From assembly GCA_947468085.1 (NCBI GenBank), contig CANIKY010000017.1, positions 1 through 40,076 of the forward strand: a DNA stretch of 40,076 bases, given 5' to 3'. This document shows positions 14,323-37,000 of the stretch, piece after piece. Each line of letters starts with the position of its first letter. The stretch's first letter is position 1. Both the position numbers and the translations under genes were made by a program. Below the pieces are notes generated by a model. That model saw nothing but the letters and a program-made list of their open reading frames with translations, did no database searches and was not told the DNA's origin. Origin of the DNA: Paracoccaceae bacterium (GTDB lineage Bacteria; Pseudomonadota; Alphaproteobacteria; Rhodobacterales; Rhodobacteraceae).

Positions 14323-15186
14323 TCAAAATATCCCATAAATCGCTGACCTGCGCACCACGCTCTTCCCGGATTGAACTGAAAAGTCGATGCCAAGATCAAA
14401 TCTGTAAGGCGCAAGCGCACCGGCGTCTGCCTTTAAGAATTCAGTCAGAGCTGGCGAAAAGCCGTTTTCATGTGCAAATTGAAGTGTCCGACGCACATCA
14501 ACCCGTGAAAAATACACGGCACTCGATATGGCCTTGCGAGATATGACGAATATTTCTTCATCGTAACGGCCAGGTGCAAGCGGTTCTGGCAGGTTGGGCA
14601 GATCACAAAGGTCTTTTAACAATTCTGCACGATCCAAGGCGCTGCGGTAGAACCGATAGTCATTCTTCCTTTGCCGCAGTTTTCCGTCCCAGACTTCAGA
14701 AACTCCAGCGCTGATAGTGCCTCCTTCATGTTCAAAATATAGGTCGACAGATCCAATTTCGCCGGTTTTTAGCGCAGTGCTGTCAAACTCGACGGAGAAC
14801 ATAAACCAAGGCCAACGATCCCCAGCCGCAAGCCCCGGGGCTACGAGTTCGGGAAGGCATTTTGCCAAGTCCGAAATGCCTAAACGGCGATCATCGCGCC
14901 CATAATCATAGAAATATAGTTCCCAAGAAACGATCCCATCTGTCGATTTTATTCCCCAAACGGTGTTGAACTCCCCCCAGCACGCTTGAATACGGGTGAA
15001 AATGCTAAGAAGACGCCGCCCCGCCAGTGAATCTGGGAGGGACTTCAGCAAAACGGCAGACTGCAGCAAGGTCGTCTTTTCAGGGACAACCACCGGCTCG
15101 TAATCCCATTGGCAGAAATCACGGAATGGGTCGTCATGCCTTCGAAAAGCTTGGTTCATTTTCATGGCACTTTCTTGGTTGGACAT
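14323..15186 (-). CDS. Uncharacterised protein, relative of the 17444-18196 product
   Basis: I do not recognise this family. The 287-residue product (start at ATG 15186 assumed; in-frame ATGs at 15261, 15165 and 15159 are alternatives) has no signal peptide or membrane segment. By eye it is a series of beta hairpins separated by helices: IVSWELYFYDYG, a pair around FMFSVEFDS and SVDLYFEHEGG, ISAGVSEVWD/NDYRFY then a helix, AVYF/RRTLQF, and a final DLGIDF...SAIYG. The last four segments match in order the pattern of the protein encoded at 17444-18196. Five hairpins in sequence recall the ABBA-type aromatic prenyltransferase barrel, but I see no diagnostic residues. About 200 bases without a gene separate it from phnM2. 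Confidence 0.7.
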   Translation of the reverse strand: MSNQESAMKMNQAFRRHDDPFRDFCQWDYEPVVVPEKTTLLQSAVLLKSLPDSLAGRRLLSIFTRIQACWGEFNTVWGIKSTDGIVSWELYFYDYGRDDRRLGISDLAKCLPELVAPGLAAGDRWPWFMFSVEFDSTALKTGEIGSVDLYFEHEGGTISAGVSEVWDGKLRQRKNDYRFYRSALDRAELLKDLCDLPNLPEPLAPGRYDEEIFVISRKAISSAVYFSRVDVRRTLQFAHENGFSPALTEFLKADAGALAPYRFDLGIDFSVQSGKSVVRRSAIYGIF

Positions 15187-15297
15187 CTGCAAATGGTCAC
15201 AAAACGCCCATTTGGTGTCATGCCGACTGGTCAAGTGCAACCTTCTGTCGGAACGGCGCATCTTTTAACCGACATGCCCAAAAGGGATTGATCTGTC

Positions 15298-15438
15298 ATG
15301 GCAAGATCGCCTGACGAGGCTTGCAGATCAAGCGTTTTTTCCCCTTCGTTGCGGCATAAGAAGCCCGGAAAATACTATGTCAGTGTGATGGTAAAACGCG
15401 CCACCACAGCGTCTTGGCCCTCAATGATCATGTTTTGA
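15298..15438 (+). CDS. Possible small ORF (46 codons) upstream of oxygenase
   Basis: An open frame from ATG 15298 to TGA 15436-15438 encodes 46 residues, starting MARSPDEACR and ending TTASWPSMIMF. AAAGGGA at 15281-15287 is about 10 bases upstream, and the frame ends 27 bases before the oxygenase ATG, so it could be the first cistron of that operon. Size and place would fit a small peptide substrate of tailoring enzymes, or a leader peptide, or chance. No family is recognised. Confidence 0.2.
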   Translation: MARSPDEACRSSVFSPSLRHKKPGKYYVSVMVKRATTASWPSMIMF

Positions 15439-15465
15439 ACCCTGACCGAACAAGGCAAGACGACT

Positions 15466-16398
15466 ATGCAAGACATAAACGAAACGATATGCTCAAAACT
15501 GCGGATCGATTGGTCCTTGGACAAGCTGCAGCGTTCCAGAAATTTATCGCGAATAGGGCTATGGATGGACATGGACGAAGTGGCAAACTTTCTGACGATC
15601 TTGAGAAAAAGCCATGACGCAGGCTTGCCAGAAAATGCGCTTGAACGCTTGCGCGACGGTTCGGCCGATGTTGTCTTGGTTGACGGTGTTTTTAGCCAAG
15701 ACATTTGCGCCGCGATGGTAGATGCGCTTGAAAAAACCCCCACTTTATTTGAGGTTACAGAGTTTCCTGGTCCATTCCGCTCGTTCTTTTATGGCCGCAA
15801 CTTGAATCTCAACGATCCCGATCTTGACGACTATTTCAACGCAGCCAAGCGTTTCGAAACTGATTTGTTGCGTTTTGGTGCGTGTTTTGGAGTTGACATA
15901 GCAGCGCGCCTTGTGGCCGTTTTGACCGAATTGGACAGGGGTCACACGTTTGAGGCTGCCCCCGGCCCAGGCTTCAGCAGGCATTTTTTTACTACATTTC
16001 GGGGTCATAGGCCTGGGGGTTATATTCCGGCGCATTTCGACAACGAGCAAAGCTTTAGACCCAGCTACCGCTACATCGCCGAAGCTACGGAAGGGGATAT
16101 TTTATCATTCGTTGTGACCCTTGCCGAAGCAGAGGCAGGCGGCATGCTGGAACTTTACGACCTTTTGGCGAGCGATCTTGGGGGCGAACACCGCAATGAT
16201 GACGATCTCGCCCGCAAGCCGGATTTGAGTAAGCTAAAGTCTCACTTGGTTCATGTTCCAGCCGGTTCCATGGTAATTGTGCGCTCGGGAAGGCGGCTTC
16301 ACAGAGTGGCGCCGGTTGAAGGGTCACGCACGCGGTGGACGCTTTGTAGCTTTATGGCTTGCGCAAAGACCGGTGGCAGAAACTTTTGTTGGGGATGA
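15466..16398 (+). CDS. 2-oxoglutarate/Fe(II)-dependent oxygenase
   Basis: A 310-residue cytosolic protein with the jelly-roll dioxygenase signature: HxD facial-triad start at His190-Asp192 (YIPAHFDNEQ), distal His279 (SGRRLHRVAP), and Arg288 or Arg290 placed to bind 2-oxoglutarate. Between them ILSFVVTLAEAEAGGMLELYD supplies core strands. Because the acidic ligand is present, hydroxylation or desaturation is expected rather than halogenation. The N-terminal 150 residues are mostly helical and not assigned. ATG 15466 is preceded by AAGG about 10 bases upstream. Its TGA overlaps the next ATG (ATGA), so oxygenase and methyltransferase are made together and probably modify the same compound. The substrate is unknown. 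Confidence 0.82.
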   Translation: MQDINETICSKLRIDWSLDKLQRSRNLSRIGLWMDMDEVANFLTILRKSHDAGLPENALERLRDGSADVVLVDGVFSQDICAAMVDALEKTPTLFEVTEFPGPFRSFFYGRNLNLNDPDLDDYFNAAKRFETDLLRFGACFGVDIAARLVAVLTELDRGHTFEAAPGPGFSRHFFTTFRGHRPGGYIPAHFDNEQSFRPSYRYIAEATEGDILSFVVTLAEAEAGGMLELYDLLASDLGGEHRNDDDLARKPDLSKLKSHLVHVPAGSMVIVRSGRRLHRVAPVEGSRTRWTLCSFMACAKTGGRNFCWG

Positions 16399-17156
16399 AC
16401 CTAGCTTATTTCGACAACCTTTTAGCTGCATATAGCCGCGGGATCGTGTCTGATCATGTGCATCTGGGCCTTTTCAGCGATAAAGTTGAAGGTCATCCGC
16501 TGGCTGTGGCGCAAGAATTGATGACTTTGCGTCATGTAGAGCTGCTTGATGTGAAGGATGGTGATAGCGTTGTTGATGTGGGCTGTGGACTTGGCGGAAC
16601 GTTAAGATGGATCGATGCCCATTTTGAAAGAGTTCACCTGACCGGCGTGAATATTGACCAACGTCAGATCGATGCCGCAAGGGGTGGTGCTTGGCGCAAA
16701 ATTGTAGATTTTCAACTTTGTGATGCAGCAGGTTTTTCAAAAGCCCGCGTCCAGTGGGCTGATCGGATAATATCAATTGAGGCTATGTTTCACTTTCCTG
16801 ATTTGTCGGGCTTTTTTTCGGCATCGGCACGGGCCATGCGGTCAGCCGGTAAGATGGTGGCCAGCACGATCCTGTTCAAAGAAGATGCAAACCCCCAGTC
16901 AGTGGCCACTGTATGTGCGGGTTTTTCCCCTTGGCCCAATCCAAAACTTCAATTGGCTGATCTTTGCGAACAGGCAAAGGTATCAGGATTGAAGGTCGTT
17001 CAGGTTGAAGATCTCGCCCATTACTGCCTGCCAAGCTTTGAGTGGATGTGCCCACCTTGTCCTGCTGACATTACCGATGATCCGGTTATTGAATTGCGCC
17101 GCATTTTCGAGGCGGGAGAGGCATCCTATCCGTTGCTTGTTCTTTTGCCCGCATGA
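16395..17156 (+). CDS. Class I SAM-dependent methyltransferase
   Basis: A 253-residue Rossmann-fold methyltransferase. Motif I is VVDVGCGLGG at about 59-68; the acidic-loop region GVNIDQRQIDAA lies near 94-105, and IISIEAMFHF is the motif IV/post-motif region. The N-terminal SDHVHLGLFS resembles the small-molecule methyltransferase group that includes sarcosine/tocopherol-type and geranyl diphosphate C-methyltransferases. ATG 16395 is chosen because it overlaps the oxygenase stop as ATGA; an upstream TTG at 16359 lies within the oxygenase gene. There are several cysteines in the last third (CPPCP). Acceptor atom and substrate cannot be told. Confidence 0.86.
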   Translation: MNLAYFDNLLAAYSRGIVSDHVHLGLFSDKVEGHPLAVAQELMTLRHVELLDVKDGDSVVDVGCGLGGTLRWIDAHFERVHLTGVNIDQRQIDAARGGAWRKIVDFQLCDAAGFSKARVQWADRIISIEAMFHFPDLSGFFSASARAMRSAGKMVASTILFKEDANPQSVATVCAGFSPWPNPKLQLADLCEQAKVSGLKVVQVEDLAHYCLPSFEWMCPPCPADITDDPVIELRRIFEAGEASYPLLVLLPA

Positions 17157-17262
17157 TCGCCCCGATGAGGTGCATTGGGAGACTTAACGGCGCGTTTGCT
17201 GCGCCACAGTCCGTTTGGGAACCGCTTCTGGGTGGGTGAGATGCTGCTGATGTTTTAGTTTA

Positions 17263-17439
17263 ATGATGGGCGTTGTTGGGTCAATGCTATGGTGTGGCCT
17301 TTGGCTGTTTGATGTTTTCGAGGCTCTATTGGTTGAGGAATTTGCGATGGACGGACCCATTGAAACGCTGGAAACAAGCGTTTTGCTCGGGCGGTGCCCA
17401 GAGCTGCACGAGGGCGACTCAAGAGCGCCGTGCCCGTGA
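17263..17439 (+). CDS. Possible small ORF (58 codons)
   Basis: An open frame from ATG 17263 (ATG 17284 is an alternative) to TGA 17437-17439 encodes 58 residues: a hydrophobic start (MMGVVGSMLWCGLWLF), then an acidic segment (DVFEALLVEEFAMDG, ETLE) and a Cys/Pro-containing tail (GRCPELHEG, APCP). The composition looks more protein-like than chance, but no ribosome site is seen. It ends five bases before the convergent gene at 17444. It may be a real small protein, a peptide precursor, or a fragment of a decayed gene. Confidence 0.25.
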   Translation: MMGVVGSMLWCGLWLFDVFEALLVEEFAMDGPIETLETSVLLGRCPELHEGDSRAPCP

Positions 17440-17443
17440 AGCA

Positions 17444-18196
17444 TTATGTATTATCATCCTCTGGGAAGCCGTAAAGGGTAACAAAGGGTACTCCATCGGC
17501 CGATACGCCTAAGGCGACGTGGCAAAGTGGTGCAGCCAAAAGCCGATCTATGGAGGCCGCTGTTTGGCCTAAACTCTCCAAAAGCTTTGAGATCGCAGCC
17601 AGAGCTTCATTCGAAGCGGCCTCATCTGCAAAGTTGAAATCCAAGGAACGACGATTTGTGCCGTCCTCGGTTACCAAAAGGGTTGAGTAATCGGTTGACC
17701 CAAAGACGATTGCGCGGCTCAGCCTGAGCGCAGGGGGCTTGAACCAGTCTGGTAGGCCCAGTGATGCGATCAGTCGATCGGCGTCGGCCTCAGTCGCCAA
17801 GGGGATGGTGTGGTAGCGGTTAAGATGTAGGCCACCCTTTGCGGCCTTTAGGGCAATGAAGGTCAAGGCAGGGTCACTGGGCGTGCCTGTGACCAGTTCC
17901 AGATACACTTTCCGAACGGGCAGGCGATCGGCACCCGACGATGGGTCCAGCCCAAAATGTACCATCTCGCAAATGTCGATCCAAGGCCGCAATGCGCCTG
18001 CCTGATGGCCAAGAAACGCCTCGGCGGTCTTTAGAAAGGTGGCGGATGCGCTTGGTGCGAAGGCCGATTGGGGCAGAGTGTAAAGGCGCCGACCGTCGGA
18101 CAGACCCGTAGAACTGACCTTCACAGAAGCGGCACGCAATGGCTTTCCTGGCAACAGGTTTAGGAGGGCCTGTTCGCCTTCGGGGATGCCTGTCAT
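17444..18196 (-). CDS. Uncharacterised protein, relative of the 14323-15186 product
   Basis: Family not recognised. The 250-residue product from ATG 18196 (a GTG at 18229 would add 11 residues) has no signal peptide or membrane helix. It reads as repeated beta-hairpin plus helix units: KVYLELVTG, FIALKAA/LHLNRYHT then EADADRLIASLG, RAIVFGSTDYSTLLV/RRSLDFNF then a helix ending KLLESLG, and a closing HVALGVSADGVPFVTLYG. The order and spacing parallel the product of 14323-15186. The stretch DYS, RRSLDFNF, helix, ESLG recalls a similar passage in NphB-type ABBA prenyltransferases as I remember it; this is only a pattern resemblance. It flanks the oxygenase-methyltransferase pair on the other side. 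Confidence 0.68.
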   Translation of the reverse strand: MTGIPEGEQALLNLLPGKPLRAASVKVSSTGLSDGRRLYTLPQSAFAPSASATFLKTAEAFLGHQAGALRPWIDICEMVHFGLDPSSGADRLPVRKVYLELVTGTPSDPALTFIALKAAKGGLHLNRYHTIPLATEADADRLIASLGLPDWFKPPALRLSRAIVFGSTDYSTLLVTEDGTNRRSLDFNFADEAASNEALAAISKLLESLGQTAASIDRLLAAPLCHVALGVSADGVPFVTLYGFPEDDNT

Positions 18197-19035: not shown

Positions 19036-22000
19036 ATGCAAATGACCAGATCGAACTTTGGTTCTATTTTGAAACTGACTGGAAACAGGAAGGCCAGGCG
19101 CGCTCAGTCACGGAAGCTTGGTGCCAAGGCGCTTAGATCAAACGAAAGTTTGACAACGTATGTTCTTGATCCGTTAGAGCCCCGCATTCTCATGGATGCT
19201 GCGCCGACGTCGCTTTATCTCTCAACAATTTCTGGCGCAACGACGGCCGGGGCGGTTAGCGCAACTGTTAGCCTGACAGGCGCGGGTGGAATTTATAGCT
19301 ACAACGTTTACGACAGCGGGCAGGCTTTGCTTACCAGCGGTCAGATTGCGAGCACGAGTGAGCTGAAAATTTATGGCGGTGACGGCAATGATACGATCAC
19401 GCTGAAGTTTGGTGCAGGCTTCGATGCTGGGTCTGGATTTGGCGTATCGTTGGATGGCGGGGCAGGAAACGACGCACTTGTTTTTGGAACGTCTTCCGTA
19501 GGCTTCCTTGGGAGTTTGAGCCTTTCGGGAGAGACTGTATCTGTAACAAGTGGCATCGGATCTTCGGGTTCTAGACTACAGGACGTCACAATTACAGCCA
19601 GCGCGTCGAATGGGGTCGATCAGTACGGTTCTGCCTCTGCGTCAAGCACGATCACGGTTGCCAATTCTATCTTTGCGACAGGTGTGGTCAGTCTTGGGGC
19701 GACAGCCTTTGTTTCGGGAACTTCAAATTTTACTGGAATTGCGCCCGACAATTCGCAAATCGTGTCTGTGGCCGCAAATATCTCTGTCGCTGACGGCGTT
19801 ACGATCGATGCCGGTTCCATCAGCATCGTCACAAGTTCTAGCGCGAATTTGGCATCGAAGACCGAAAATCGCCTTTTGTTTGTTGCGACGGAAACTGTTT
19901 CGTCGACGTCGCGGGTCGCAATTGGCGCAGGCACGCATCTGCTTAGCTCGGCGGCTGATGGTATCACGATTTCGGCTACGGATGACACGGACGTAACAGT
20001 GGAAGTTTCGGCGTTCGAGATTTCCTTGTTGAATAAGGCATTGTTTGATATCAATGCGTTGTCCGTAGACCTTAGTGTCACAAAATCGGTTGGCGTTGCC
20101 ATCGGTTCGTCGGATTCAGCCAAGTCTATAGCGTATTTGACGGCTTCGGGTGATGGGGGGATCTCTGTGTCAGCCCAAGCTGGCGGATCTGTCGTCTCAA
20201 AGGTCAATAGCAGCTTCTTGGGGATATCTCAGGTTGCTGTGTCCGCAGCGATTGGATCCGGCGGGGTTCTGGTTGACGTGAATCGCGCTGCGCTTGTTGC
20301 TGGGGGCAAGATTTCGGCCGCCGCTGAAGACAGCACTTCGGTTGACAACATAGCAATGATTGCCATGACGACGGCGGCGCTGGATGTTGGTGTAACCGTA
20401 GCGGCCTCATCCGTTACCGCGGGTACTGGTATTGCCGCGACCGCGGCAAGTGAAGCGCACTATACGGCCACTGCGAGTTTTATCGGCACCGACAAGGTGC
20501 AGTTCACCCCCATTTCAGTAAATTTTAAAGCCGCATCTTCGATCAACAAAATCACCGGCAATGTGGCAGCGGTTGTATCGGCCAGTACGCTTGTGGCCAC
20601 AACAGGGGCGATTGACCTTACGGCTACGGATGCGCGTTGGCTGGTGTCAAATACCATTGCACGTCAGGATATTGATTCCACACTCGCCACGCTCATGTTT
20701 GGCAGCACAACCAATATGGCGGCCAGCGCCACGCTGAGTGTCAACGCGCTGCTCGGCAAGGTCTCGGCCGATATGGTCTCGTCCTTTGTGACGGCGACGG
20801 CGGGGGATGTGACGGTATCGGCAGATCTTGCCATTTTCCTTGATGCCAGAACCGTGGCGGCCGTGATGCAAACTGGCGGATCGGGCGCCGCTGCCGGGTT
20901 TTCCATCGCCCAGAACTATGTAGGTTATGATGTTAAAAGCATCGCCGCCCAGACAATCAGCGCGATCTTTGGATATAATTGGGGTATCGAAGAAAACATT
21001 TACACTGTGAATGCTAGTATTCGAGACAGCCAAGTTATCTCGGGTGCAGAGGTCAAGGTTGCGGCGAGTAATACCGGCAAGTTCAATGCGACAGTCTCAA
21101 ACATAGCGACAAATGCGGCTGTAATGCCCTTTGGGGCGCAGGCAAGTTCTGCCCTTGGGTTTGTGATTTCATCGACGAAAATTGCCACCTCTGTTCGGGC
21201 TGTTTTGGAAAATGACGTGACGTCTAGGACCGTTTCAGCGGCCACAGGCGTCAGTGTCACCGCATCAAACACTGCAGATATTGCAGCCAATGCAAGGGTC
21301 TACTCCTCTTCCTTGGCGTCAACCGATGGGGGCGCTAGCTGGGCCAACAACTTGATCGGTATTTTGGCACCAGCAGATTTTCGCACGACCGGCGCAGGTG
21401 GCAAGACATTTACCGGCCCAGACGCATTTTCGTTGACTGAGGTTGAGACCGGCCCGCAGAGCGTTCGTTTCGGCGACCGTGTGCATTTGCTGCCGACCTA
21501 TAAGGATGGAAGGGCAACCGGCCAATTAGGACGCGGTACGCAGGGTTCCATCTACCGGTACTTCGGACCAGCCTCTGACCTTGTTGATTTGAGAAATACA
21601 GATTTCACCAACTTAGACTTGTGGCGCGAAGAACGTGAAACTGCCACCATTCCAGCCGGTCTAAGTTTTGGCCCGAACACTTCGACAGCCTTCGGCGGGC
21701 TTGTGGTGCGCAATGATGTGAAGGGCGACACTACGGCTGAAGTTCTGAAGGCCAATATCGGAATGGATCCCAACAATCCGCTAGTTCCAAATGCCGTCAA
21801 CACGACGGGCGGGCTTACGGTGTCTGCAGTTCAGGCGGGTAGCTTGACGAGCGTGTCGGATGTGTCTGTTTTCAGCAAGGGCACAGGCGGTGTGGCCGGC
21901 GAAGGTCTAAGCGTGGCCATTGGCGGCATGTTCGTGATGAACTCAGTCTTGGGGACCGCGACGGCCCGTGTTTCTGGAAGCACGGTCTTTGTCTTGGGTG

Positions 22001-25000
22001 ACTTGGACGTCACGGCTGAAAACAGTATAGGGCTTGTCGGCACCCTTAAGAACGGGTTGACCACCGACCAGTTCGGCGCGGCACTTGTGGTTGCGATCAA
22101 CAGTGTCGGCTACGCACCAACCGATTTGTTCAATGCCACTTGGGACACACTGGTTGGAAACGGGGGCACCAGCCTGCAGGCAGATGCTGCCGTGGCCGAA
22201 GTGATCGTATCAACTCTGACCGCCACCGCTATTTCCGTGACGGCCACCAATTCATCGTCTTTGGATGCTCTTATCACTTCGGATGTCGGTGCCGCGGCAA
22301 GTGCGCAGATAATGTCGGCGGGCACCGGGGCAGCCAGTGGCGTGATGGCGTCAAACAGCCTTGCAGGCAAGGCACGGGCGACTGTGGATCTGCTGGGCGG
22401 CAAAACCGTCACTGCGACGGATGGCGGGGTGATCGTCGCCGCCTATGATGAAACCCACCTGACGTCACTTACCCAACTTGTCACCACGGCACAGGGATCG
22501 GGTGATCTGGGTGCGGGCGCAGTTGGCCGTGTGATCGAAAACATTTTGAACCGCTATGATTTCACATCCTTTTCGGGATCTAGAACGCTGACCTTCGGCG
22601 ACATGGTCTATATCGGATCGAACGGCGGCTTGCTTAAGGGGAAGCTGTATCTATTTCTGGGCGAAAGCAAAGACGACGTCGATCTTTCTGTGATGGCAAA
22701 CTACGCGGATCTGGGTTTATGGCGAGAAATCACCTCTGCTACGGCTGCCGCGACGAGCCTCGGCCAGCAAATTGCTAAGTTAATCCTACCCCCATCCGTT
22801 AACGTATCAGGGGCAGCCTTGATCTCGCGCAATCGGACCGAGGCGGGTGCCCAGGCCCAAATTCGAGACGGTACGGTCACGGCGACCGGGACGATTTCTG
22901 TAGAAGCCTTTGAAAATGCGACCCTGTCAGCGCAGGAATCGTCAGAGGTTGAAGCCTACGACGAGGGTGGTGTTGCAATTGGGGGGATCATCGCCAGCAA
23001 TACTTTGCTGAGTGCGGCGGACGCCACGATCTTGCGCGCAACGGTGACATCCTCTGCCGGGGGTGTGTCGGTGCTTGCGCGTAACACGTCGGTTGTCACG
23101 GCTTCGGTGACGTCTAAAATCACGTCAGATGGCTCTAGCGTCGGCTTGGTCATCGCCTTCAACGCGGTGGGCGTTGATGGTGGAAATATATTTAAGATGG
23201 GCGCTGATGCGCTGTTGGGATCAGGCTTTACAGCGGTCGAAATCCCCGTTGGTGCCCACGCCCTGATCCGTGACAGCAAGGTCACCGCTTACGATTCGAT
23301 TGACGTGATTGCGGACACCCGCGACGTGATCAGCCCAGATCTTGGACGGTTCGGTGTTTCCGCGCAGATGTTTGATGACATGCTGCCCGACGTCGATGGC
23401 AACTTGGATGAGGCCCGCGTCACTGCAGCCCAACTTGCGTTTAATGCTGCTTTGACGGGCCTTAAGCAGACCTATGAGGGTACACTTTCGGTTGAAGCTC
23501 TTGTTCCAGCCCAAATATGGCTTTTGTCTGACGAGGTTGGCAACACGTGGCGCGTTGAACTTACCGCCCTTGGTGCAGTTCAACTTGTTCGGGTGAATTT
23601 GATTGATTCCGTTGTCGGCAACGAAGTTGCAGCGGCTAAGAGTGGCCTGCCTAACCCGTTTGAGTCTGTGAGTGATCCGTTTGGCGACGTCGGTGTTGCG
23701 GGCGGAGGTATTTTAAGCTCCAATCGCATTGCAAGTTCCACAACGGCCAAAATCGAGCGGACGATTACGCCGAGCGTTGCGTTGACGTCTGCCAATTATG
23801 TGACATCTGAAGCGGGCGACGTGACCGTTAGTGCGACTGACACTGCTAATATCCGAGCGACCACATCCATCGCTGCCTCTTCGGTGGTTACGACCAACCT
23901 GGATGCTGCGCGAGATCTGGCCTTAGCTTTAAGCGCAAAGAACTATAAGTACACCACACAGTCGGGATCGCAGTCATTTTCCTATGGCGATCTGCTGTAT
24001 ATTGATGCTTCGATTGCCGATACAATCACCCCTACAAATATGATTCAGGCTGGGTCTGTCTATCGGTTTGAAGGCGTTGGTGGCACGAAGAATTTCTCAA
24101 AACTAAGTTATGAAGAATTGTCCGATTCGAACAATTGGGTGCGTATCAACGGCAATGTGGATGTGGCTGGTGTTTTGTTTCCCTCGTTGGGGAACCTTGC
24201 TAACTCTAACGCGCGCGCGATTGGCGCGATAATTGTGATGAACGACGTCAAGGCGGGGGCCACCGCTTTAATCGATCATGTTGGAATTAGCGCTGGGAAT
24301 GACGTCACGGTCACTGCAGAATCAAAGGCCGCCCTGATCGCACGCGTTGACGCGACAGTACAGTCTTCGGGCGGCAGTGCTTGGGGCAGTGGGATGTCGC
24401 TGGCGGTGAATGGCCAGATTGCAACCAACCTCGTTCAAAACTCGGCCTCGGCCTCTATCACCGACAGCAAGGTGTACCGCGGTGGTGACGTTGTCGTGCT
24501 GGCAGACCAGGGCGCTGTGCTGGATGCCCGTGTGATTTCGTCGACTGAAACTACCTCTGTCGGCGTTGGGATCACGCTGGCGTTCAATTCAATCGGCTGG
24601 CAGGCATCCAACGTTCTTTACAATGCGCTGGATGTGTTGATCGGGGATCCGATGTTATCGTCGCTGATTGCAATTCCAGGGGCAGGGGCTACCGCGCAGA
24701 TCCTTCGGTCGGAGATTTTGGCCCTTTCGGGGGTTGCCGGGGGCACCAGTGTTGAGGCAATTTCGTCTAGCCGCATCAATGCCACGGTTTCGAATTCGAT
24801 ATCCTCGGTCGCAACAGCGATGTTTAACGCGGAAGGTTCTTCCACGGGCATGGTGCTTGTGTCGAACAAAACGGCCGGAGACACAAAAGCCCTGATTGAC
24901 ACCGCGACCGTTATTGCGACGGGAGATGTTCGGGTTCTAGCCTCTGACATTCAAGAAATTCACTCCAATTCCTCGATCTCGTCCAAATCTGAAACTGCGA

Positions 25001-28000
25001 ACGACGGCGGGACAACCGCCATGCAAAGTGCCCTGAATAGTGGCACGCCGACCGATTGGGCGGCCACCGTCGGCGGGCCGTCCCAGCCTGTTGGGCTGCG
25101 GTTTGGCGACAAGGTGCGCGTGACGGATGCGGGTGTGGTTCTGATCTATGACTACATGGGCGAGACAGCCCTACCAAGCGACCCGCTCACGGACCTCAGC
25201 GCCCAGAATTATGCGGAAGATCTTGATTATTGGCGGGTTGAACCGGGCAATGCGCTGCTGAACACCGGCCTGAACGTGACGGAAAGCGGTTCTAATTCTA
25301 TCGGGATCATTATGGTCCTGAATGATTTGCGCACGACAGTTCTGGCCGAGATAGTAAGCTCTACCGTGGTGGCAACAGACGGTTCGGTCAGTGTCGACAG
25401 CAGTCTGGCGTCGTTGCTGGATGCGACTGTTGATGCCGAGGTGACTTCTGCGGGTGGTTCGGCCATCGCCGGCGGCGGCGACAACGCGGCTTGGGGTGGA
25501 GCTGCCGCTACCAATACAGTCATGGGCGGCGCAAGTTCATTCATATCGGCGTCAAGCGTGACCGCCACAGGGGCCGATGCCGGCGATGTGTCGGTGACGT
25601 CAAGCAATTCGGCCGAGTTGATTGCCACTACGGCCTATAACGCAGAAACGGGCGGAGGTGGCGGCGCGACACTGGCTTTCAACTCGGTCGGTTGGAAACC
25701 TTCGAACCTGTTGTTCAATGCGGTTGACACGCTTATCGGGCAGTCAGCTTTGGGCAATACCAGTCCGGTTGATGCCACAGCACAGATTACAAATAGCGAT
25801 GTGACGGCTTTTGGCAGTATCACTGTTTATGCTGTTGATATTGCAAGTATAACGGCGGATACTTCAAACGCCACCTCGGCGGCTGGGGGCATTCCACAAG
25901 CAGACGAGGCGGGCTCTAAGGGCCTTATCCTAGCCCTGAACAAGGTCTATGGCAGCGCCCATGCTGAAATTTCTGGCGTCCGCACTGGTGGTGTTTTGGA
26001 CGAAATCCTGCGCGCGGATGGAGATATCTCTGTCAGCGCCGAAAATACGTCGTCAATCACCGCCGTAAACACGCTGGACGTTAAAGCAGCGATTGGCAAT
26101 GACGCGATCGCAGTGCTGTCTGCTTATATCGAGACCTCGCGCTTAGCTTATGAATTTACCACTTTCTCGGGTACGCAACCGATCCATAAAAACGATGCTG
26201 TGCGTATTGGGTCCAACATCGGCTTAAATCCAGAGACTGCAGCGCAGAGTGCCATCTGGGATGGCGACGTTTATCGCTACATTGGGTACACCGGGGTCAA
26301 CGGCGTAGACGTTGATCTGGGAACCACCAATTACAAAGATACAGCGCTATGGCAACTCCTGCCACGGGGTGATCTGGCATCGCAGATCCCCGAATGGCTT
26401 TCGCAAAGCTTTGGCCCAGGAAATGCGTCCGCTGTCGGTGCGCTTATGGCGGTTAACGATGCGCGCGGAGAGACGACGGCGAGCATTTCATCGGTGGATA
26501 TTGAGACATCTGCCGGTGATCTGATTGTCACTTCAGACAACAGCACCATGATTGATGCCTTGAACACCGGCAAACTTTACTCGCATGGTGGATCGGTTTT
26601 TGCGGGTGGCGCAACGGCTGCCGTTAACATCAACATCGCCACCAACACCGTATTGTCCAGCGCGATTGCTGAAATCACCGATGCAGAGGCGAAGGCTACG
26701 CTTGGCGATGTGAGTGTGAACGCAGTTTCCGCTGGATCAATCATCGCTACCGTCGACAGCAGCACCAAGGCCTTTGGGGGCGGAACTTCGGTCGCCATTG
26801 GTATCACTCTTGCTTTCAACTCGGTCGGGGAAGAGCCGCAGAACGTGGTCTTCAATGCGGTTGATACACTGATTGGCACGGCACTCACGGGATCGGATGC
26901 GGCCGTCGCCGAGGCGCGGATCTATCAGTCGAAGGTCACTGCGGGCGACGATATTTCGGTAGAGGCATCTTCAGAGTCAACGATTGACGCGGTGATTGAG
27001 AGTGCTGCCGTATCAACTTCTGTAACCCTAAAGGAGGGGTCCAGCGTAACAGTCGCGCCGATTATCGCGCTGAACCGCATTGCAAGCATGGCCAAGGCGG
27101 AAATCGTCAACGGCTTGGTTGCAGGGCGTACCGTCTCTGCCGGAGGCGACATTCTGGTGGACGCAGTCGACCAGTCTGAGATCAAGGCGGATGTGAAATC
27201 TGCCTCGACAGCCATCACTGCCAGTACAAAATCAACCGCGGTTGGGGTGGCTGTAACTTTTGCGCGCAACGAAATTCAGTCTGACGTAACGGCCCAGATC
27301 GTTGACGTTCCCACCTTGACGGTCGGTGGGGGGCTATCGGTTACTGGCCAGCGCACCGCAATAATTAATGCCTTGGGCTTGTCGTCGTCGATTGCGGTCT
27401 CGCTCAGCTTGGGCGTGAACACGACGCCGTCTGTTTCCGGGGGCGGCGCAATCGCTGTGAACCGGGTGAACGGTGCAGTCATTGCCCGCATAAGTGGTAC
27501 CGCCGCCACTGTGACCGGCGACGTCTTGGTCAAAGCCACCACGGTCGCGCAGATTTTTGCGACGGTTCAAGCCCTTGCTGCCACGGCTGCAATGTCTGGC
27601 GGCTCTTCGACGGCCGTCGGCATGGGCGTTGCGGTTGCCGACAACCAGATCGGCTACAAGAGCGTTGCGCCCAGTTCAGTGGATTTTGACAGTGACGGCG
27701 CCCTGAGGGTCAACTTGGTTGTTGGCAACATTGTTCGTGTTAGGGGCGAAAATGCCCTCGCTGGTGGATATTACAAGCTCGTCAGCACTAAGGATCGGAC
27801 GCTAGTTGATCTATCGATCGAAGACTACAGCGACGAGAAGAAATGGAAGCGGGTCGATCTTGTCGGCGAGGCCGCCGCCGCAACTGCCGAGATCGTTGGT
27901 GGCACGATGGCTGTTACGGGGGACGTGTCTGTTTTGGCGACGGCTGGTCAATCCGTCGTTGCCACTGTTTCGGCAATCGCGCTTGCCATTTCTGCTGGCA

Positions 28001-31000
28001 AAAGCGGCGTTGCCTTCTCGGGTGCCGGATCGTCGGCAAAAAACCGCATCCTTGGCGGCGCAATTGCGCAGATAAACGGAACCACCTCGGTTTCGGCCCA
28101 TGATTTGATCCTGTCCGCACAGGATACCAGCATCGTGCGGGCCTGGGTTAACGCAGCCTCGATTGCTGCAGCCATTGGTAAGTCGGCGACTGCGGTTTCT
28201 ATCGGTGTTGGAGTGGCCCTCAACGAGGTGGAAAACTCTGTTACGGCTAAGTTGAACAGTGCCGGCATCGTCACATTGACCGGCGGCCTTTCGATCACTG
28301 CCCTCGCATCCCCGCCGCCCAGCTTTAGTGTGGCGCGCGACACGATTACGGCTGACCAACTGAACGATGCGACAGAAACCTCGATGACCACGTCGGGCAG
28401 CGATACGGTGATCGATGCCGTAGATGTAACGAGCGATGCGTTGATCGTGACGACCCTTTTGAACAGGCTTAACACAGGGCTTCCCGTTGGCCAGAAGATC
28501 GAGGGGAATGTTCGCCTCAGTCGACAGCAAGATGAAGAAGGCTGGGTGCTTGTTGACGGGCTGGGGCGCACATTCCTTTTGTCGCTGGTCGGAAACAATT
28601 TGACGGCGGATGCCTCGACCATCGACTCCGTTGCGCAGGCGGCGTCGATGTCCGTAGCGGTGGGTGGTCAATCGGGCGTTGCGATTTCGGGGGCCGGTGC
28701 CGTCAGCACAAATGACGTGCGCAGTTCGTCAAGCGCGGAGTTGCGCGGCAGTAAAGTTTCAGTAGGCGGTGCCGTGTCGGTTACGGCGCAAAATCTGTCA
28801 AGCATCAATGCTTCGGTTCTGGCGGCCTCTGCGGCGGTCGCGGTCGGATTGACGACTGGTGTGGGGGCCTCGATTGGCGTTGCGGTTGTGATGAACCGTA
28901 TCTCTGGTTTGACCGCAGATACCCCTGTGCGAGTTCGTGCGCTCATAGACCAAAGCGATGTTACTGCCATTGGCGCTCTTACCGTCAGTGCCACGACGGA
29001 TGCCAAGATTAATGCGTCCAGCTTTGCCGGATCGGTTGCGGTTGCGGCGGGCAGCACAGGTGTTGCATTGTCTGGCTCTGGCGTATTTGTGCAAAACCAG
29101 ATCGATATTTTCACGAGTGCTACGATATCGGGCCAGTATGCGGCAACGCCCGCAGGCCAAGCGGCCGTGAAAGCGGCCAGCATCACAGTGCAGGCATCCA
29201 GCCTTTCGGAGATCAAGGCTTACGGTGGCGCGGCCTCTGTCGCCGTCGCCTTGGGGTCAACCGGTGTCGCCGTCAGTATCGGCGCGTCGATTGTCGAAAA
29301 CCGCATTGGCGGGTCTACCTCGGCCGGTATCACCGGCATCGCGCGAGGCGTTGAGGCGGGCGCCATCTCAGTCTCTGCCGCCGATCAATCCGACATCAGG
29401 GCAACGGCACAGGCGGCATCAATTTCCGCGGCCTTCGGGCCTACTACTGGCGTGGGCATATCCGGCGCGGGGGCGTTTGCCACCAATACAATCACCGCTG
29501 CCGTTCTGGCCGAGGTGGTGGGGGCTAAGGCGACTGGAACGACGCTGGCCGTTACGGCCAACTCTGCCGGCACGTTGCGGGCCACGGTTCAGGCGGCCTC
29601 TGCTGCGGTAGCGATCGGTGGTGCGACAGGTGTGGGCGCCAGCATTGGGGTTGCCGTAGCCAAAAACCTGATCGGCTATTCCGCCGTAGACGTCAAAACC
29701 TTGTACCCGACGTACAGCGCGGGAACCGCTCGGCCTACTCTGATCTCGTCTGGACAAACTGTCTTGATTGAAACGGGCGGCAGGGCAAACCAAGTGTTCC
29801 GATATATCGGAAACCAAAGCCTCGCTGCTGCGGGTGGCATTGATCTGTCGACGCAAGATTATTCCAACCCGAATTTGTGGGAAGACCGCAGCCTGTCGCG
29901 AGAACCCGCAGGAGTTACGGCAGAGGTCGATGCCAGCACCGTCAGTCTTTCGGGTGCTTTGACGATTTCCGCCACCAGCGTTCAAGCGATTGATGCGGCG
30001 GTCTTCGCGGGGTCTGTCGCCATAGCCGGAGGGACCTTAGGCGTTGGCGTCTCGGGGGCGGGTGTGTCGGTGACAAACCAAATCGCCACAAATGTTGCTG
30101 CCACCCTGTCCGGCGGCAGCGCCACCGCGGCGAGTGTTTCGGTGATTGCGCGCGATGACAGCCGGATCAACTCAACCGCGCAAGGCGTATCGCTGGCGGC
30201 GGCCTTTGGCTCTACGGGCGTGGCGCTGTCAGTTGGGGTATCTATCGCGCTGAACGTCGTTGAAAATGATGTTGCGGCCACGATTTCGGGGGCGCAGGTT
30301 ACAACCAGCCCAGCCAATGGTTCGGTGATTGTACGCGCGCTGACCGGTCTTAGCACGCCATCTAGCCTGTCTGGCATCACGGCCGAGGGCTTGGCCGATA
30401 TGGCAGCAACGGATCTGAACGCAGCCGGCACCGCCGTGGATGCAACCGATTTGGCGGGCGATAACGCTCTGCGCGCAACTTTGAAGACTGCTCTGAGTGC
30501 TAGTGCCTCGGGTGACCTGCGGGTTGCGGTGATTGAGGCTGGAACGAAATGGTCGGTGACCGATGGGCAGGGCCATCAGTGGACCTTGCAATTGGTCGGC
30601 AGCGCGATCCAAGCCACACGATCAACCATTAACGCTGTGGCCATGGCGGCCTCTGTTGCAATTGCCGGTGGAATGGTGGGGGTGGCGTTCTCGGGTGCGG
30701 GTGCCTCTGCAATCAATGCGGTGACGTCAACCTCCAAGGCGATGGTGACAAGTTCGACGATCACGGGCACAACGTCGGCCGCCGTCACGGTCGAGGCACA
30801 AAGCCAGTCTAGCATCAATGCTGGCGTGATGGCGACCTCGTTGGCTGTAGGTATTGGCCAAGTGGGTGTCGGCGTGGCCGTTGGGGCTGCGATTTCGCGA
30901 AACTACATCGGTTATACGGCGCAAGGCGATGCAGTCGCAGACCGTGCCATCACTATGGCCGCGATCGACAGCAGCACAATTAACGTGGGCTCGGGTTCAA

Positions 31001-34000
31001 TTTCGGTGTCCGCGACGTCCAGCGGGCAGATTAATGCGCAGGTGATTGCAGGTGCAGGCGCTGCTGCGGCGGGGCAGGTTGGACTTGCACTTTCTGGCGC
31101 AGGCGTGAGTGTTGAGAACCGCATCAACGCCACGACAACGGCCCGCGTCACCGGGTCCACCGCCAGCCTCAGCGCCGGGACTGTGTCTGTTCAGGCGGCC
31201 AATAGCGCGTCCATTGATGCCGTGGCTGGGGCCGTGGCTTTCAGCATTGCGGGCGGTATGGTGGGCATCTCTGGTGCTATTGCTGCGACGATCGCGGTCA
31301 ATACCATCTCAAGCACGACCTCTAGCCAAATCATTCGCAATGCTGACAGCGGTGCGGCAGGCGTTGTCAGCGCGACGACGGGAGCGCTAAATATAGGCGC
31401 GGCGGATACTGCGACAATCCGATCGCGCGCTGCATCCGTGGCACTCGCTGCGGGCTTTGGGGTCGGCGGAATTGCGGTCAGTGGGGCTGGTGCCGATAGC
31501 AGCAACGCCATCAGCACTCTGACCAACATTCGCATCGAAAGTATGAACATCTCTGGCCAAACGGGGATCGTCGTCTCGGCGAATGGAGCGGCAAGCATTG
31601 ACGCAAAGGTCATGTCGGCTGCCGCCTCACTCGCGGTTGGAGCGGTTGGCATCGGCATTTCTGTCGGCGCATCGCTTGCGCGAAATGATATCGGTGGCGC
31701 GGGGCGCGGGGTCATCGTCGGCTTGACTGGCGCGACTTTAAGCTCTGCGGCGGGCAATATTGCCGTTGACGCCAACATGACGTCCACCATCCGCGCCCTC
31801 GTCGAAGGCTTTGCCTTGGCCGTCGCTGGCGGGATCGTGGCCGGCGCTGGGGCCGGATCTGGCGCAACCGCAACAAACACACTGCATTATGCCGTATCGA
31901 CCAGTGCTGACGGGTCGAGTTTTACCGCGACTACTGGCCGCGTGACGATAAAAGCAAAAGACACATCTGATATTGACGCCACTGTGCGTTCAGCCTCGAT
32001 TGCGGGGTCGGTTGGGTTGGGGGGCGCGATGGCCGTGTCGGTCTCGCTTGCATCGGCTGACATTTCAAACACCATTACAGCCAGCCTACATGACACAGAC
32101 GTCATCGCCGCAGCGTTGGATGTCGTCGCGACAGATGCGGCCAAGGCGCTTATTAAATCTTCGGCCTCGGCAATTTCTGCGTCTTATGGAGGAATAGCCC
32201 TTTCGGGTGGTGGCGCTAATGCGACGATCACCAACAGCAACACAACCTTGGCACGGATCGATGGCACAGCCACGGACATCACCCTGTCGGCCTATGGCTC
32301 TGATGCAACCCGCGCAGGTAAAGCCTTGGTGGACGCTTCGGCCCAGTCTGATCTTGTGGCCACAGTGGATGTGCTTTCGATCGCGGCTGGGTTCTTGGCC
32401 CTCGCTGCCAGTGGCGGCACTGCCAGCGTTACGACGGGCGGCACCGTTACTGCCGGGGCTTCTTCGGTGCGACTGACAGCGGTGGGGTTGACAGTATCGT
32501 CCCTGTCGGAGGTTGGGCAAACCGCAGATGTCTGGGGAATGACTGTTGCAACCACAGCAGCGGTAGGGGTCAGCAATGCCGTTGTGACAACCAGCCGTGA
32601 TTCGACCGCTACGGTGGGCGGGGCGAGCAGTAACTTTAGGGTCGGCAGTCTGACGATTTTAGCCGAATCGACAGCCCTTTCAGGCCGATCGAGTGAAGAG
32701 GTGACGGCCCGCGCGTCGGGTGGTGGCGTCTTGTTGGGCGTGCAATCCACCTCGGCTGCGGCGCATAACGATGCCAATGTCGTTGCGGGGATTGAGACTT
32801 CGGGTGTCGTGACAGCCAGCGGAGCCGTCGTCATTTCGGCCAGCAATGGCAGCCGCCAATCGGTCAATTCACTGGCCGCAGCGGGCGGCCTGATCGGCGT
32901 TGGGGCTGCCAGCTCCACCGGCGACGTGAACGGCACGACCACGGCTACTATTGGCCAATTGGTTACATTAACGGCCGGATCCCTGGCGATCTATTCGGTT
33001 GGCGAAGATATTTCGAATGTGGTTGTTAAGGCTGGCGCATTTGGGCTTGCCAGTGGGGCCGCAGCCACAGCCACTACGGATATCACGTCGAATGTTGTGG
33101 CGGGTGTGGTAGATGCCGCAAGCTCTGGGAATAAAGCGAACATTACCGTCGTTGGTACGTTTGAAATCGCTGCAGCACACACTGCAACCCCGTCCGCAAC
33201 GATCAGCACAGATGCTTATGGCGCGCTAGCCGGTTCTGGCGCTGCGGTTTCGCATGACGTTAACTCTGACGTCACTGTCAGGCTTGGAAATTATGCCCGT
33301 GTGAGCGCAGGCACATTCGACATCGATGCCACAAACCGCTTGGGGGGAAGCAGCTCGATCGACGGCAAGACTGGCGGTATTGTATCAGGCGCCAGCGCTA
33401 ATGCCGACACGCGTGCAGACTTTGCGACGGCCGTTTACTTTGGAACAGACAGCGTCATTACAGCGACCAATGATACAGGTAGCCTGAAAGCGGTTGTGTA
33501 TAACTCCCTTGAGCAGTCACTTAAAACCAAGCTGGTCACGGGCGGTGCATTGGCTGGGGCGGGGGCTTATGTTGATTTCGACGGGAAGAATGTTCTTGGC
33601 GAAATAGTCGTGGGCGAACGCGCCCAAGTGACAGCGCGGGGCGGACTGGAATTTGAAGTTGATGGTTTCACCAAAATATACCTTCAATCTTATTCCGAAA
33701 CTTTCGGGGCCGCGACGGTCGCACTTGGCTATGCCAAGGCGGATGTTGTTCCAATAAACCGCATCAAAATTTTAGGCAATGCCAAGATAATTTCTGCGGA
33801 TGATATGTACCTTAGCACGGGAACTGACCGCGACCTGCATTTGCCAGAACACTCTCTAGAAATGCGTGTGGACAACTTTGCAGGCTCTGTGATCCCGATA
33901 TCTGACCTTGAGACCCGTGCGCTTTACGAGGCGCATAACCTCATTCAAATCGACTCCGGCGCATCGATTGATGGCTATGCCAACATCGATCTGAACGCGG

Positions 34001-37000
34001 ATGGATTTAATATTGCCAGCGTCGTGGGCGTTGCCAAGGCCACCAGTTGGGCGTCTTCGCTGGGCAATGCGCTGGGCGGCGGAAACGTCGGATCGGGTGC
34101 AGGCGCCACGCGATCCGTGATTATGGGCGACGTTATCAACAATGGCACCATCACCACAGGGGCGCAACGCGCAAAAAGCCTGACGCTTATCGTGAATAGT
34201 GCTGGCAACACAGTGATCGATACGACCCGGTCTTCGATGACGACCCAAGATGGCGTGACGACAAGCGACATTACCTTCACCGCAGGACGTGCGACGCTGA
34301 GCTCAGCGCAGTTTACCAATCTGGCCACGGCCCGATCCAACATCCAGACTTATGCTGATAACGCGACCTTGGTTACCTTTTACACAAATCAGGTTACCCG
34401 AATTGAGGCGGACCTTTTGGCTCAGGGCCTGGCAGAGAGAATGGGTGACGGTACCATCGTTGCCTTGACGCCAGAGGTTAACACCGTCACTATCGGCCGT
34501 GTCAAGGCTGCAGCGGGACGCGTTCGTATATTTGCTGACCAATTGTCGGGCACGGGCACTATTAACGTTCCCAAGAATGCATCCATCACTATTAACAGCG
34601 AATCCTTCGCACAATTGGTTATCGCCGATATTGAAATTCCAGACACCAATGGTGGAATTTACTTCAATGGCACCGATATCACAGCCATTGGCGAGACGAC
34701 AACGTCGGTTGCCACCGCACTGACGTGGGTTAACGAAGAAAACGTTCGAAACCGAAACAGCAATAATAATAACTTGGCTAACATTGGCGCATCTGACGGG
34801 ACAAAGACTGCTGGCTTCAATGTGACGGCAGCGTCCATCGACCGGACTTCGTCGATGCCCCAAATCACAATCTCGGTTTCGAACATCAACACTTTTGTGA
34901 GGACCGGAACCGTCTTGCCGCCACCGCAGGAAATTCGCGTGACAGGTAGCATTATTGCGCGCACCAGTCATTTGAGCATAACGAACCCATCGAGCGGTGG
35001 TAGCGTCACCATCTTGGGGCAGATCGCAACAGCCGAGCTTTCTATCGCCTCAACGAGCGCGGTATCTATTTCTGGCGCTGTCGTATACCAAGTCGGCGGC
35101 GATCCCTATGGCCAGTTTCTGAACTCGGGGATGATCGGTGACGGATCGACCGCAGCTAATTCGAACGCAGATCGCCTAGCCAAGTTTAATGCCTGGCTTG
35201 CGGCCAATCCTACCACGCCATCGATCATGTCGAACCGGATCACGATTAGTGCCGAATTTCTTGATGTGAACGGCCTAATTCAGTCTGGCAAGCAGGATTA
35301 TACCTTGGTCTTGGGCGATGCCCAAAAGACGCAGATCGACCGTGCAAGGGCGTCGGGCTCCAATTATACCAATATAACCGTTGACGGAAACTCGGATTTC
35401 ACGCTGATCTACAACCGACAGGCTGATGCTTTAACTGTGAAGGCGCTGCGCCCCACAGGCGGATACATTGAGCTGACGGGCAATATCATGAACTCCCGTA
35501 ATGGTAAGGTGACGGCCTATTCTGGGTATCCGCAGATTACGATCACCAACAACATGGCGCTGCCTGGGCTGGACCTGACGTTTGAAACCATTGACGCAGA
35601 TGTGCGCGGCGATGGCATCGTAAAGATCAATGATAAGGCGCGCAGCTTAACGACGATCTACACCAAGCTGGCCAATGGGAATGTGCAAGTTGATACGATT
35701 AACTTCGGATCCTCTTCCACAGCGACGAGCACGATTTCGGATAACAACCTCACGTATAATCCTGTTTCTGGATATCGATATGCTTGGTCTGTGGGTGTTT
35801 CTTCGCGCACCAAGGCAACAGATAAATGGTCAGAATCAGGTTGGCTGGGGATCATTGATCTTGGAAGCGAACGCATTCCAGTAAACCCAGAGTACCAGCA
35901 GTTAAGTGCGGCCTTGGTTCCGAACTCTAATTACTACTACCGTAATACAGGGCTTGATGGCAACGCCTATACCTATTCCGCTAGCACGGTAACCACCTCC
36001 TCCACTGGATGGAAGCAAACACAATATTCGGTAAAGAAAAGCTGGTATGGCAAAAAGACTTACACATACGAATACCAAAAAGTTGATGGCGAGTTCACGA
36101 CAAACACCCACACGATTGAGGCTGATCGCCCAATTGGCATAAGTTTCATACACAACACAGCTGGCAATATCATTATTAACGCTGGCAGTGCCGACATCGT
36201 CATAACAGGCAAACTGACTAATAAAACTGGCACCACATCGCTGACAACGACCGGATCGATCACCACTTCGGCGTCGCTGGGTGGCACTTCTTTGGCCAGC
36301 GTGGGCGGCAAGACGGTGAACTTGACAGCGGGTGGCAGCATTGGCTCGGCCCTGTCGCCGCTTCAGACCGACCTTGCTGACGGAATATCTGGCACGTTGA
36401 TCAATCCGATATCTGGCGGGGACATCTACCTTTACGAGGTCGATGGCGATTTTAATATCGGGACAGTTTCCGCCGTTAAATATGCTGGTACTAGTTCAGA
36501 GTCCCGTGGCACGGTATCAATCTACGCGGCCAAGTCTATTCTGGGCGGATCATCTAGTTTGATTTCAGGCGGCGCGGTAATTCTGACTGCCAAGGCTGGT
36601 ACAATTGGAACTGCGTCTCAATCATTGCGGATTGATACGGGCACTTTAGCCACTCATACCCTAACCGGCACTTCAACAGACGACATGTTCATCTCTGAAA
36701 TCTCGGGTGATTTGCGTGTCTACAGTCTGACCGCCCCGGGCAAGACCGTGACGCTCAACGTTTCTCTCGGCAGTCTCATTGATGGCAATAATAACGCGAC
36801 TGTTGATACACGTTCGGTTGAGAAACTCTTGTCGACGGTATGGACTGACCTGCAGCTAATCGGCACCGCCGCTACTGATAAGGTGGCTGAGGCCAAGACT
36901 GCCTTGTCTGCCGCCAAAACCCGCGATTACCGCACTTATTGGACCTGGCGGCAACTGCAAGGCGCTGATTTCGATGCAATCATTAGCGATAGCTCTCGGG

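Follow-up and report, generated by a model that had tools for sequence, protein, structure and literature searches.

We analysed a 40,076-nucleotide stretch of DNA from a Paracoccaceae bacterium (GenBank contig CANIKY010000017.1, positions 1 to 40,076, forward strand; hereafter the window), in which four genes, gA to gD, lie between phn genes and the 5' part of a gene for a giant LEPR-XLL surface protein. An initial annotation made from the sequence had proposed that these four genes form a tailoring cassette, in which two related proteins of unknown function flank an oxygenase-methyltransferase pair. Below, handles beginning with G, C and L denote genomes, contigs and loci, respectively; the window is contig C17 of genome G000. 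The features concerned are the following.

14323..15165, minus strand: gA, 280 amino acids (aa), ABBA-prenyltransferase-like by Foldseek ranking, without Pfam or NCBIfam family; relatives in other genera
15466..16398, plus strand: gB, 310 aa, WelO5-family Fe(II)/2-oxoglutarate (2OG) oxygenase (PF22814, E 2.7e-49; alignments with WelO5 in PDB)
16395..17156, plus strand: gC, 253 aa, class I S-adenosylmethionine (SAM) methyltransferase (PF02353, PF08241)
17444..18196, minus strand: gD, 250 aa, mixed helices and strands, no family; travels with gA
19036..40076, plus strand: 5' part of the giant LEPR-XLL surface protein gene (NF012209), extending past the window end
19174..19194, plus strand: LEPR-XLL motif (LEPRILM) near the N-terminus of the giant protein

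All four open reading frames (ORFs) were found where the initial annotation had placed them, and they were compared with their nearest relative, locus L008 (CAIMWI010000028.1, 'uncultured Rhodobacterales bacterium'). Changes at codon positions 1/2/3 numbered 25/22/84 in gA, 26/29/105 in gB, 34/18/94 in gC and 37/27/88 in gD, and the changed codons of gA were synonymous in 69 cases and nonsynonymous in 39. Since the changes are biased towards the third position, gA to gD are, judging by this comparison, real genes under purifying selection. The start codon of gA (ATG at 15165) lies approximately at the point where the alignment of its relatives begins, with a longer ORF from 15261; for gD there is likewise a longer ORF from 18229. 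The stop codon of gB and the start codon of gC overlap as ATGA at 16395-16398, as had been noted. The location of the cassette also proved correct: PhnI, PhnJ, DUF1045 and an amidohydrolase in the phnM position are encoded upstream, the giant ORF starts downstream at 19036, and gA to gD are the only genes between them in the ORF list of the window. The description of this region as less GC-biased holds in that the guanine-plus-cytosine (GC) content is 50-55% across 14-18 kb versus 58-64% across 5-14 kb, but the low values are not confined to the cassette and run through the giant gene (51-62%).

The product of gB matched the WelO5 family (PF22814) with 168.6 bits against a family cut-off of 27, with most of its length covered, and aligned with WelO5 chains in PDB. 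The best chain was 5IQU, the G166D variant of WelO5 (PMC8407142). Halogenases of the WelO5 type usually lack the carboxylate ligand, having Gly or Ala instead, so that the halide binds the iron (PMC8407142). gB carries a hydroxylase-type HxD motif as HFDNE (residues 190-194) and a distal histidine in LHRV. HFDN is kept in all seven gB homologues (the window, G015, G002, G006, G007, G199 and G393, the last read as two contig-end pieces), and the distal histidine lies in LHRV in six of them and in LHGV in G199. Because the carboxylate that is usually absent from the halogenases is present in gB, hydroxylation is expected; gB is probably a hydroxylase, and reading it as a halogenase was rejected on the retention of HxD in 7/7 homologues. 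The best Pfam matches of gC were CMAS and Methyltransf_11, so that the assignment of the pair to a 2OG/Fe(II) oxygenase and a SAM methyltransferase agrees with the family searches. The two genes are adjacent in all seven genomes with a strong gB match. Hydroxylation and methylation, as suggested in the initial annotation, are the likely chemistry of gB-gC, given the WelO5-family HxD site and the methyltransferase families. A role in anti-phage defence was rejected, because the only matches were to one generic 2OG model and one model of methyltransferase type.

Neither gA nor gD of the window matched a Pfam or NCBIfam family, and phmmer, hmmsearch and Pfam gave nothing useful on their folds. 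AlphaFold models were built from two-row alignments, with mean pLDDT values of 43.8 for gA and 48.4 for gD. ABBA prenyltransferases, whose fold is a ten-stranded alpha-beta-beta-alpha barrel, made up 19 of the 20 top Foldseek matches of the gA model, including CloQ, AmbP1, FamD1, AmbP3 and DciF. The gD model, given the same treatment, had none among its top 20; over the 50 rows shown, the single ABBA enzyme was DciF at rank 39 (E 3.8), and no Foldseek match was meaningful for the gD fold. As gD gives 0/20, the ranking of gA is not merely an artefact of a poor model, and gA looks like an ABBA prenyltransferase at the level of its low-confidence predicted structure. Lysine, arginine and tyrosine residues are strictly conserved across nine gA proteins. 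Two weak matches of the A1 profile were taken as chance, as were the matches of the A5 profile to viral gp41 constructs, which covered a short stretch around TVWGIK. The proposed kinship of the two flanking proteins was not borne out: two profile-profile comparisons with hhalign gave probabilities of 0.3% and 0.8%, no sequence homology was detectable, and a common origin of gA and gD was discarded. Of the shared order of structural segments, what stands is that helices and strands alternate in both low-confidence models, but gA alone retrieves a known fold.

Homologues were sought in 61 close genomes, 390 genomes of the order and 385 genomes of the class. Among the close genomes, gB-like proteins with E < 1e-100 occurred in G000, G015, G002, G006 and G007 (weak matches in G037 and G019 were left out), and both gA and gD in G000, G015, G006 and G007. 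The order sample yielded gA in six genomes (G000, G126, G199, G393, G400 and G406), and the sole gA match of the class sample was the window's own genome. At least one of the four genes was present in ten genomes; gA was also found on one named plasmid, and the plasmids searched gave no gB match. Six of the ten carry the complete set, namely G015, G006, G007, G199 and G393 besides G000, confirming the co-occurrence that had been postulated and showing that the cassette recurs across genomes with its oxygenase and methyltransferase. G126, G400 and G406 have gA and gD without a gB match, and G002 (82% complete) has gB and gC but no gA. The genes gA and gD are adjacent to one another in G006, G007, G126, G199, G393, G400 and G406.

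The neighbourhoods of gA link it to a giant protein and its putative exporter. G126, G393, G400 and G406, which represent four genera other than that of the window, share the order giant, HlyD/GAF, PqqD-M50-HlyD, SecA-like, (HlyD), gD, gA and radical SAM, in operon-like runs with overlapping or closely spaced frames. The extra HlyD gene between the SecA-like gene and gD is found in G406 and G393, and the gene downstream of gA is in all four the third radical SAM gene. The giant lies upstream on the same strand as an open frame of 10,086 aa in G126, 10,437 aa in G400 and 10,446 aa in G406, and the giant of G393 has 12,463 codons. A SapC gene and a Trp-halogenase-family gene occur in the loci of G126, G400 and G393, and not in the stretches read of G406. 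The order in G006 and G007 is SapC, gD, gA and two B12-binding radical SAM genes, followed by gC and gB on the opposite strand; a LEPR-XLL giant gene is oriented divergently to SapC. Contig C5 of G393 (67,249 bases; L028, L131-L133) has terminal repeats of 123 bases and a gB split across its ends, and carries the giant, the exporter, gD, gA, gB, gC, three radical SAM genes, SapC and a Trp halogenase; it is probably a circular plasmid holding the whole set. On the Pontibrevibacter plasmid NZ_CP049813.1 (L142, 6928-20572), a giant of 3,926 aa, annotated only as hypothetical and autotransporter-like by eye, is followed immediately by gA and the third radical SAM gene.

The LEPR-XLL family (NF012209) was matched near the N-terminus of the window giant with 20.4 bits (cut-off 17), and also in L009, L011 and L012. 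The exporter M50 proteins of G000:C73 and G406 contain a PqqD domain (PF05402), the type of domain predicted to recognise leaders of ribosomally synthesized and post-translationally modified peptides (RiPPs) as a RiPP recognition element. The G406 M50 protein scored 139.5 bits against NF041824 (cut-off 300), and the G406 SecA-like protein reached none of the SecA2 family cut-offs, scoring at most 533.7 bits against thresholds of 725-1100. Several further features were seen around these loci. Two additional exporter loci are present elsewhere in G393, on other contigs. Flavoproteins of the Trp-halogenase family stand beside or near SapC in gA loci L028, L030 and L031, and the one in L030 shows weak similarity to the NCBIfam models of the monooxygenase QhpG and the maturase GoxB. 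A small gene lies beside the HlyD genes in L142 (2845-3150, DUF3467) and in L029 (16816-17139, similar by eye only).

In G000, the genome of the window, C17 ends in 149 bases that are identical to the first 149 of C73, reversed, and the giant frames of the two contigs are in phase, (39928-19036)/3 being a whole number. Behind the 3' end of the giant gene, C73 carries HlyD/GAF, PqqD-M50 and SecA genes, and its M50 protein has a HlyD-type C-terminus. The window giant thus appears to continue on C73 into exporter genes. The evidence for this junction is strong but not final, as an internal repeat could give the same overlap. If C17 and C73 adjoin, the giant would measure about 9,955 aa and the cassette would stand at one end of a giant-exporter unit. 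The giant gene, which had been treated as a flanking boundary of the cassette, is instead part of the same system according to the gene order elsewhere and the C73 overlap. A pair of adjacent B12-binding radical SAM genes, which we count as members of the gene set and which are 88-89% identical to those of G006, is located on a further contig, C81 (L067, G000:C81 9614-12306). In G015, a radical SAM pair lies beside a second giant-exporter locus (L069). An apparent TGA within the second gene of the radical SAM pair in G000 and G015 was set aside, because the query probably begins upstream of the true start.

Counts of gA, WelO5 and PqqD-M50 were made in the 390-genome order sample, taken as one draw on the basis of the same size and handles. 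A PqqD-M50 gene was found in 26 of the 390 genomes (E up to 1e-50; two candidates were scored per genome in the first pass), and all six gA genomes are among these 26 (p 4.9e-8). WelO5 matches above 60 bits occurred in three genomes, all of them bearing gA (p 2.0e-6); both values are hypergeometric and ignore kinship and joint transfer. Weak WelO5 matches in 44 more genomes (at most 27.4 bits over a short profile stretch) were dropped as generic 2OG oxygenases, and 14 control genomes gave no WelO5 match. We read 30 of 36 PqqD-M50 places (G182:C41, G200, G216, G296, G302 and G379 were left out). In 27 of the 30, a giant-type ORF of at least 1,000 aa stood beside the operon, mostly upstream and in some cases downstream or convergent; the other three (G006, G199 and G348) meet a contig edge, where G006 shows the last 154 aa. 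The association of the cassette with a giant-protein exporter is well supported by gene content and order. Mere hitch-hiking, in which the genes share variable islands or plasmids with giants without any functional link, would fit the plasmid location in G393 (probable) and Pontibrevibacter, the patchy distribution and the lower GC of the region. We nevertheless consider it very unlikely, in view of the tight gene order in four genera, in which frames overlap or are closely spaced, and of the co-occurrence, which also holds in G199, G006 and G007 with the genes on separate contigs.

We propose that the locus produces a surface protein of about 10,000 aa, modifies it and exports it, and that gA to gD are the tailoring genes of this locus. 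In this proposal we place even confidence, midway between doubt and acceptance. From the observed association and gene order we infer a direction of export, a recognition step, a chemistry and a substrate. The SecA-like ATPase and the HlyD proteins would export the giant, and the PqqD domain of the M50 protein would recognise it, perhaps through the LEPR-XLL segment. gB would hydroxylate and gC methylate, the B12 radical SAM pair (on C81 in G000) might methylate or rearrange carbon, and gA, perhaps with gD, might transfer a prenyl group. In the most speculative step, the acceptor would be a conserved tryptophan near the C-terminus of the giant, giving a modified and possibly membrane-anchoring side chain. 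A stronger form of this proposal, which we regard as rather unlikely, is a dedicated pathway, present in bacteria of this group, in which almost cysteine-free LEPR-XLL giants are exported by a SecA-like/PqqD-M50/HlyD machine and their tryptophan is prenylated by gA, hydroxylated by the WelO5-like enzyme and methylated, yielding a lipidated aromatic anchor that would replace a sortase or lipobox signal.

Modification of the giant is preferred because of the gene order, the PqqD domain, the absence of a small precursor and the absence of a scaffold enzyme in the window. A RiPP with a short precursor was rejected, since none of the 178 small ORFs in chosen gaps of nine loci was conserved. Three small ORFs matched across loci, all between the window and L008; two of these overlap gA or gB and one match is weak. 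The main competing explanation is a small-molecule pathway, in which gA would prenylate a free aromatic, gB hydroxylate it and gC methylate it; the product, regulated together with the giant, would be a signal, a pigment or an anchor. In its favour, WelO5, AmbP1, FamD1 and AmbP3 of hapalindole-type pathways resemble gB and gA. In hapalindole-type clusters, the prenyltransferase gene is accompanied by genes for an isonitrile synthase and a Stig cyclase; no scaffold-forming enzyme was found among the genes at 14-19 kb, a genome-wide search not having been made. The gD-gA pair moreover comes directly after SecA-like genes in L030 and L031, and the exporter has a PqqD domain. We consider a free small molecule rather unlikely. 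The compact, self-contained small-molecule module of the initial annotation does not accord with gD-gA standing behind giant and exporter genes in four other genera.

The position of gD and gA in four genera, adjoining the SecA-like gene or separated from it by one HlyD gene, would also suit a different role, in which they are export factors of the giant (chaperone or adaptor) and not enzymes, and gB-gC form a separate pair. This would account for G126, G400 and G406, which have gA-gD without a gB match, for G002, which has gB-gC without gA, and for the lack of a detectable enzyme fold in gD. The ABBA-like fold ranking of gA, its strictly conserved K, R and Y residues and the absence of gA from most exporter genomes argue the other way, and we judge this role unlikely.

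As for the substrate under the proposed modification of the giant, the giants of gA genomes share a module that ends in a tryptophan hairpin, roughly Y-x-x-D-x-x-G-G-x-W. The module forms the extreme C-terminal end in G000 and G015:C55; in G126, G400 and G406 it lies no more than about 65 residues from that end, and in G199 it is close to a contig edge. The C-terminal 140 residues of the G126 giant, searched against 33 genomes, retrieved at E < 0.02 the giants of G126, G400, G406, G015 and G000 alone. The last 300 residues of the G000 giant, searched against 11 genomes, retrieved the G199 giant (E 4.5e-30) and those of G007, G015:C69 and G002 (about 1e-26), besides the self-found G000 and G015:C55; all others had E of at least 0.001. 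An earlier C-terminal tryptophan pattern (6/6 vs 0/11) was not used, as three of the 11 later showed an internal variant (G015:C69, G007:C74 and G002:C4). Cysteine is absent from the compared giant stretches of gA genomes, and a further G006 stretch has one; amino-acid composition was discarded as a clue, as the giants of G003 and G163, which have no gA, are also cysteine-free. The giants of L069, L072, L073 and L210 have in common a C-terminus of another type, GLIAFLQGLIYG or GLLAFLKGMIYG.

Several observations weigh against modification of the giant by the cassette. WelO5 acts on carrier-free small molecules (PMC8407142), which also favours the small-molecule pathway. The nine gA and nine gD proteins gave no ABBA family match in Pfam at E up to 10, and the Foldseek matches of gA had a best E of 2.8e-3 and TM-scores mostly of 0.2-0.45, from a model with a mean pLDDT of 43.8. 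In the window, gA and gD lie outside the exporter operon. On the Pontibrevibacter plasmid, the M50 and HlyD relatives upstream are distant and the stretch read contains no gD. At the family cut-off of 27 bits, WelO5 occurs in six genomes and not three; G134, G432 and G335, with 27.0-27.4 bits, have neither a gA nor a PqqD-M50 match. Twenty of the 26 PqqD-M50 genomes lack gA, so the tailoring would be an optional addition to an exporter that itself goes with giants in general. In G002, G007, G015:C69 and G320, the tryptophan module lies inside the giant, about 1,150 aa short of its end. A nine-row profile of the module found it at E < 1e-20 in 7/9 gA genomes vs 1/21 PqqD-M50 genomes without gA (Fisher p 1.3e-4), a contrast inflated by the choice and construction of the profile from the giants of gA genomes and of G002. 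G393 and G006 have gA but no match to this profile (a divergent motif in G393, a fragmented giant in G006). Because G320 has the module and no gA, the module is not specific to gA in these genomes, and tryptophan is one candidate acceptor only. The exporter neighbours of G320 are a third radical SAM, SapC and an O-methyltransferase, with no gA or gD in the stretch read.

The literature searched, which included few subscription journals or preprints, yielded no description of a tailoring cassette tied to a giant-protein exporter. No paper in it joined SapC and tryptophan halogenase, ABBA prenyltransferase and surface protein, daptide and metalloprotease, the SapC family, giants and secretion, or peptidase M50, SecA and HlyD in Rhodobacter, and LEPR-XLL proteins were hardly mentioned. 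If the proposal is true, it would connect two seldom linked fields, that of natural-product tailoring enzymes and that of how the largest surface proteins of bacteria are exported. LEPR-XLL proteins would then have candidates for both their export machine and their modification, and the WelO5-like and ABBA-like enzymes would be possible protein-modifying catalysts.

Parts of the locus resemble known systems. gB is similar to the carrier-independent Fe/2OG halogenases WelO5 and AmbO5 of hapalindole pathways by PF22814 and by structure alignments, whereas gB and its six homologues keep the HxD carboxylate and stand in a different genomic setting. The gA model ranks ABBA prenyltransferases (CloQ, AmbP1, FamD1, AmbP3 and DciF) in 19 of 20 places, but gA differs in its lack of a Pfam match, its low model confidence and its link to a giant-protein exporter. 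Prenylation of peptide residues, of tryptophan or arginine, is known from RiPPs and ComX, with tryptophan isoprenylation described for ComX (PMC5331326). Those prenyltransferases are alike in acting on peptide residues, whereas here no short precursor was found and the proposed substrate is an exported protein of 10,000 aa. As with the daptide intramembrane metalloprotease and PqqD-type RiPP recognition, the exporter M50 protein has a PqqD domain and its G406 copy matches NF041824; it differs in a score far under the family cut-off, in the HlyD-type C-terminus (window genome) and in its setting beside SecA and giants. In Gram-positive bacteria, serine-rich adhesins that carry modifications are exported by accessory SecA2 systems. 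The present locus is Gram-negative, its SecA-like protein is under all SecA2 cut-offs (G406 copy) and its tailoring enzymes are not glycosyltransferases, but it is like those systems in combining a second SecA-like ATPase with a giant surface protein and modifying enzymes.

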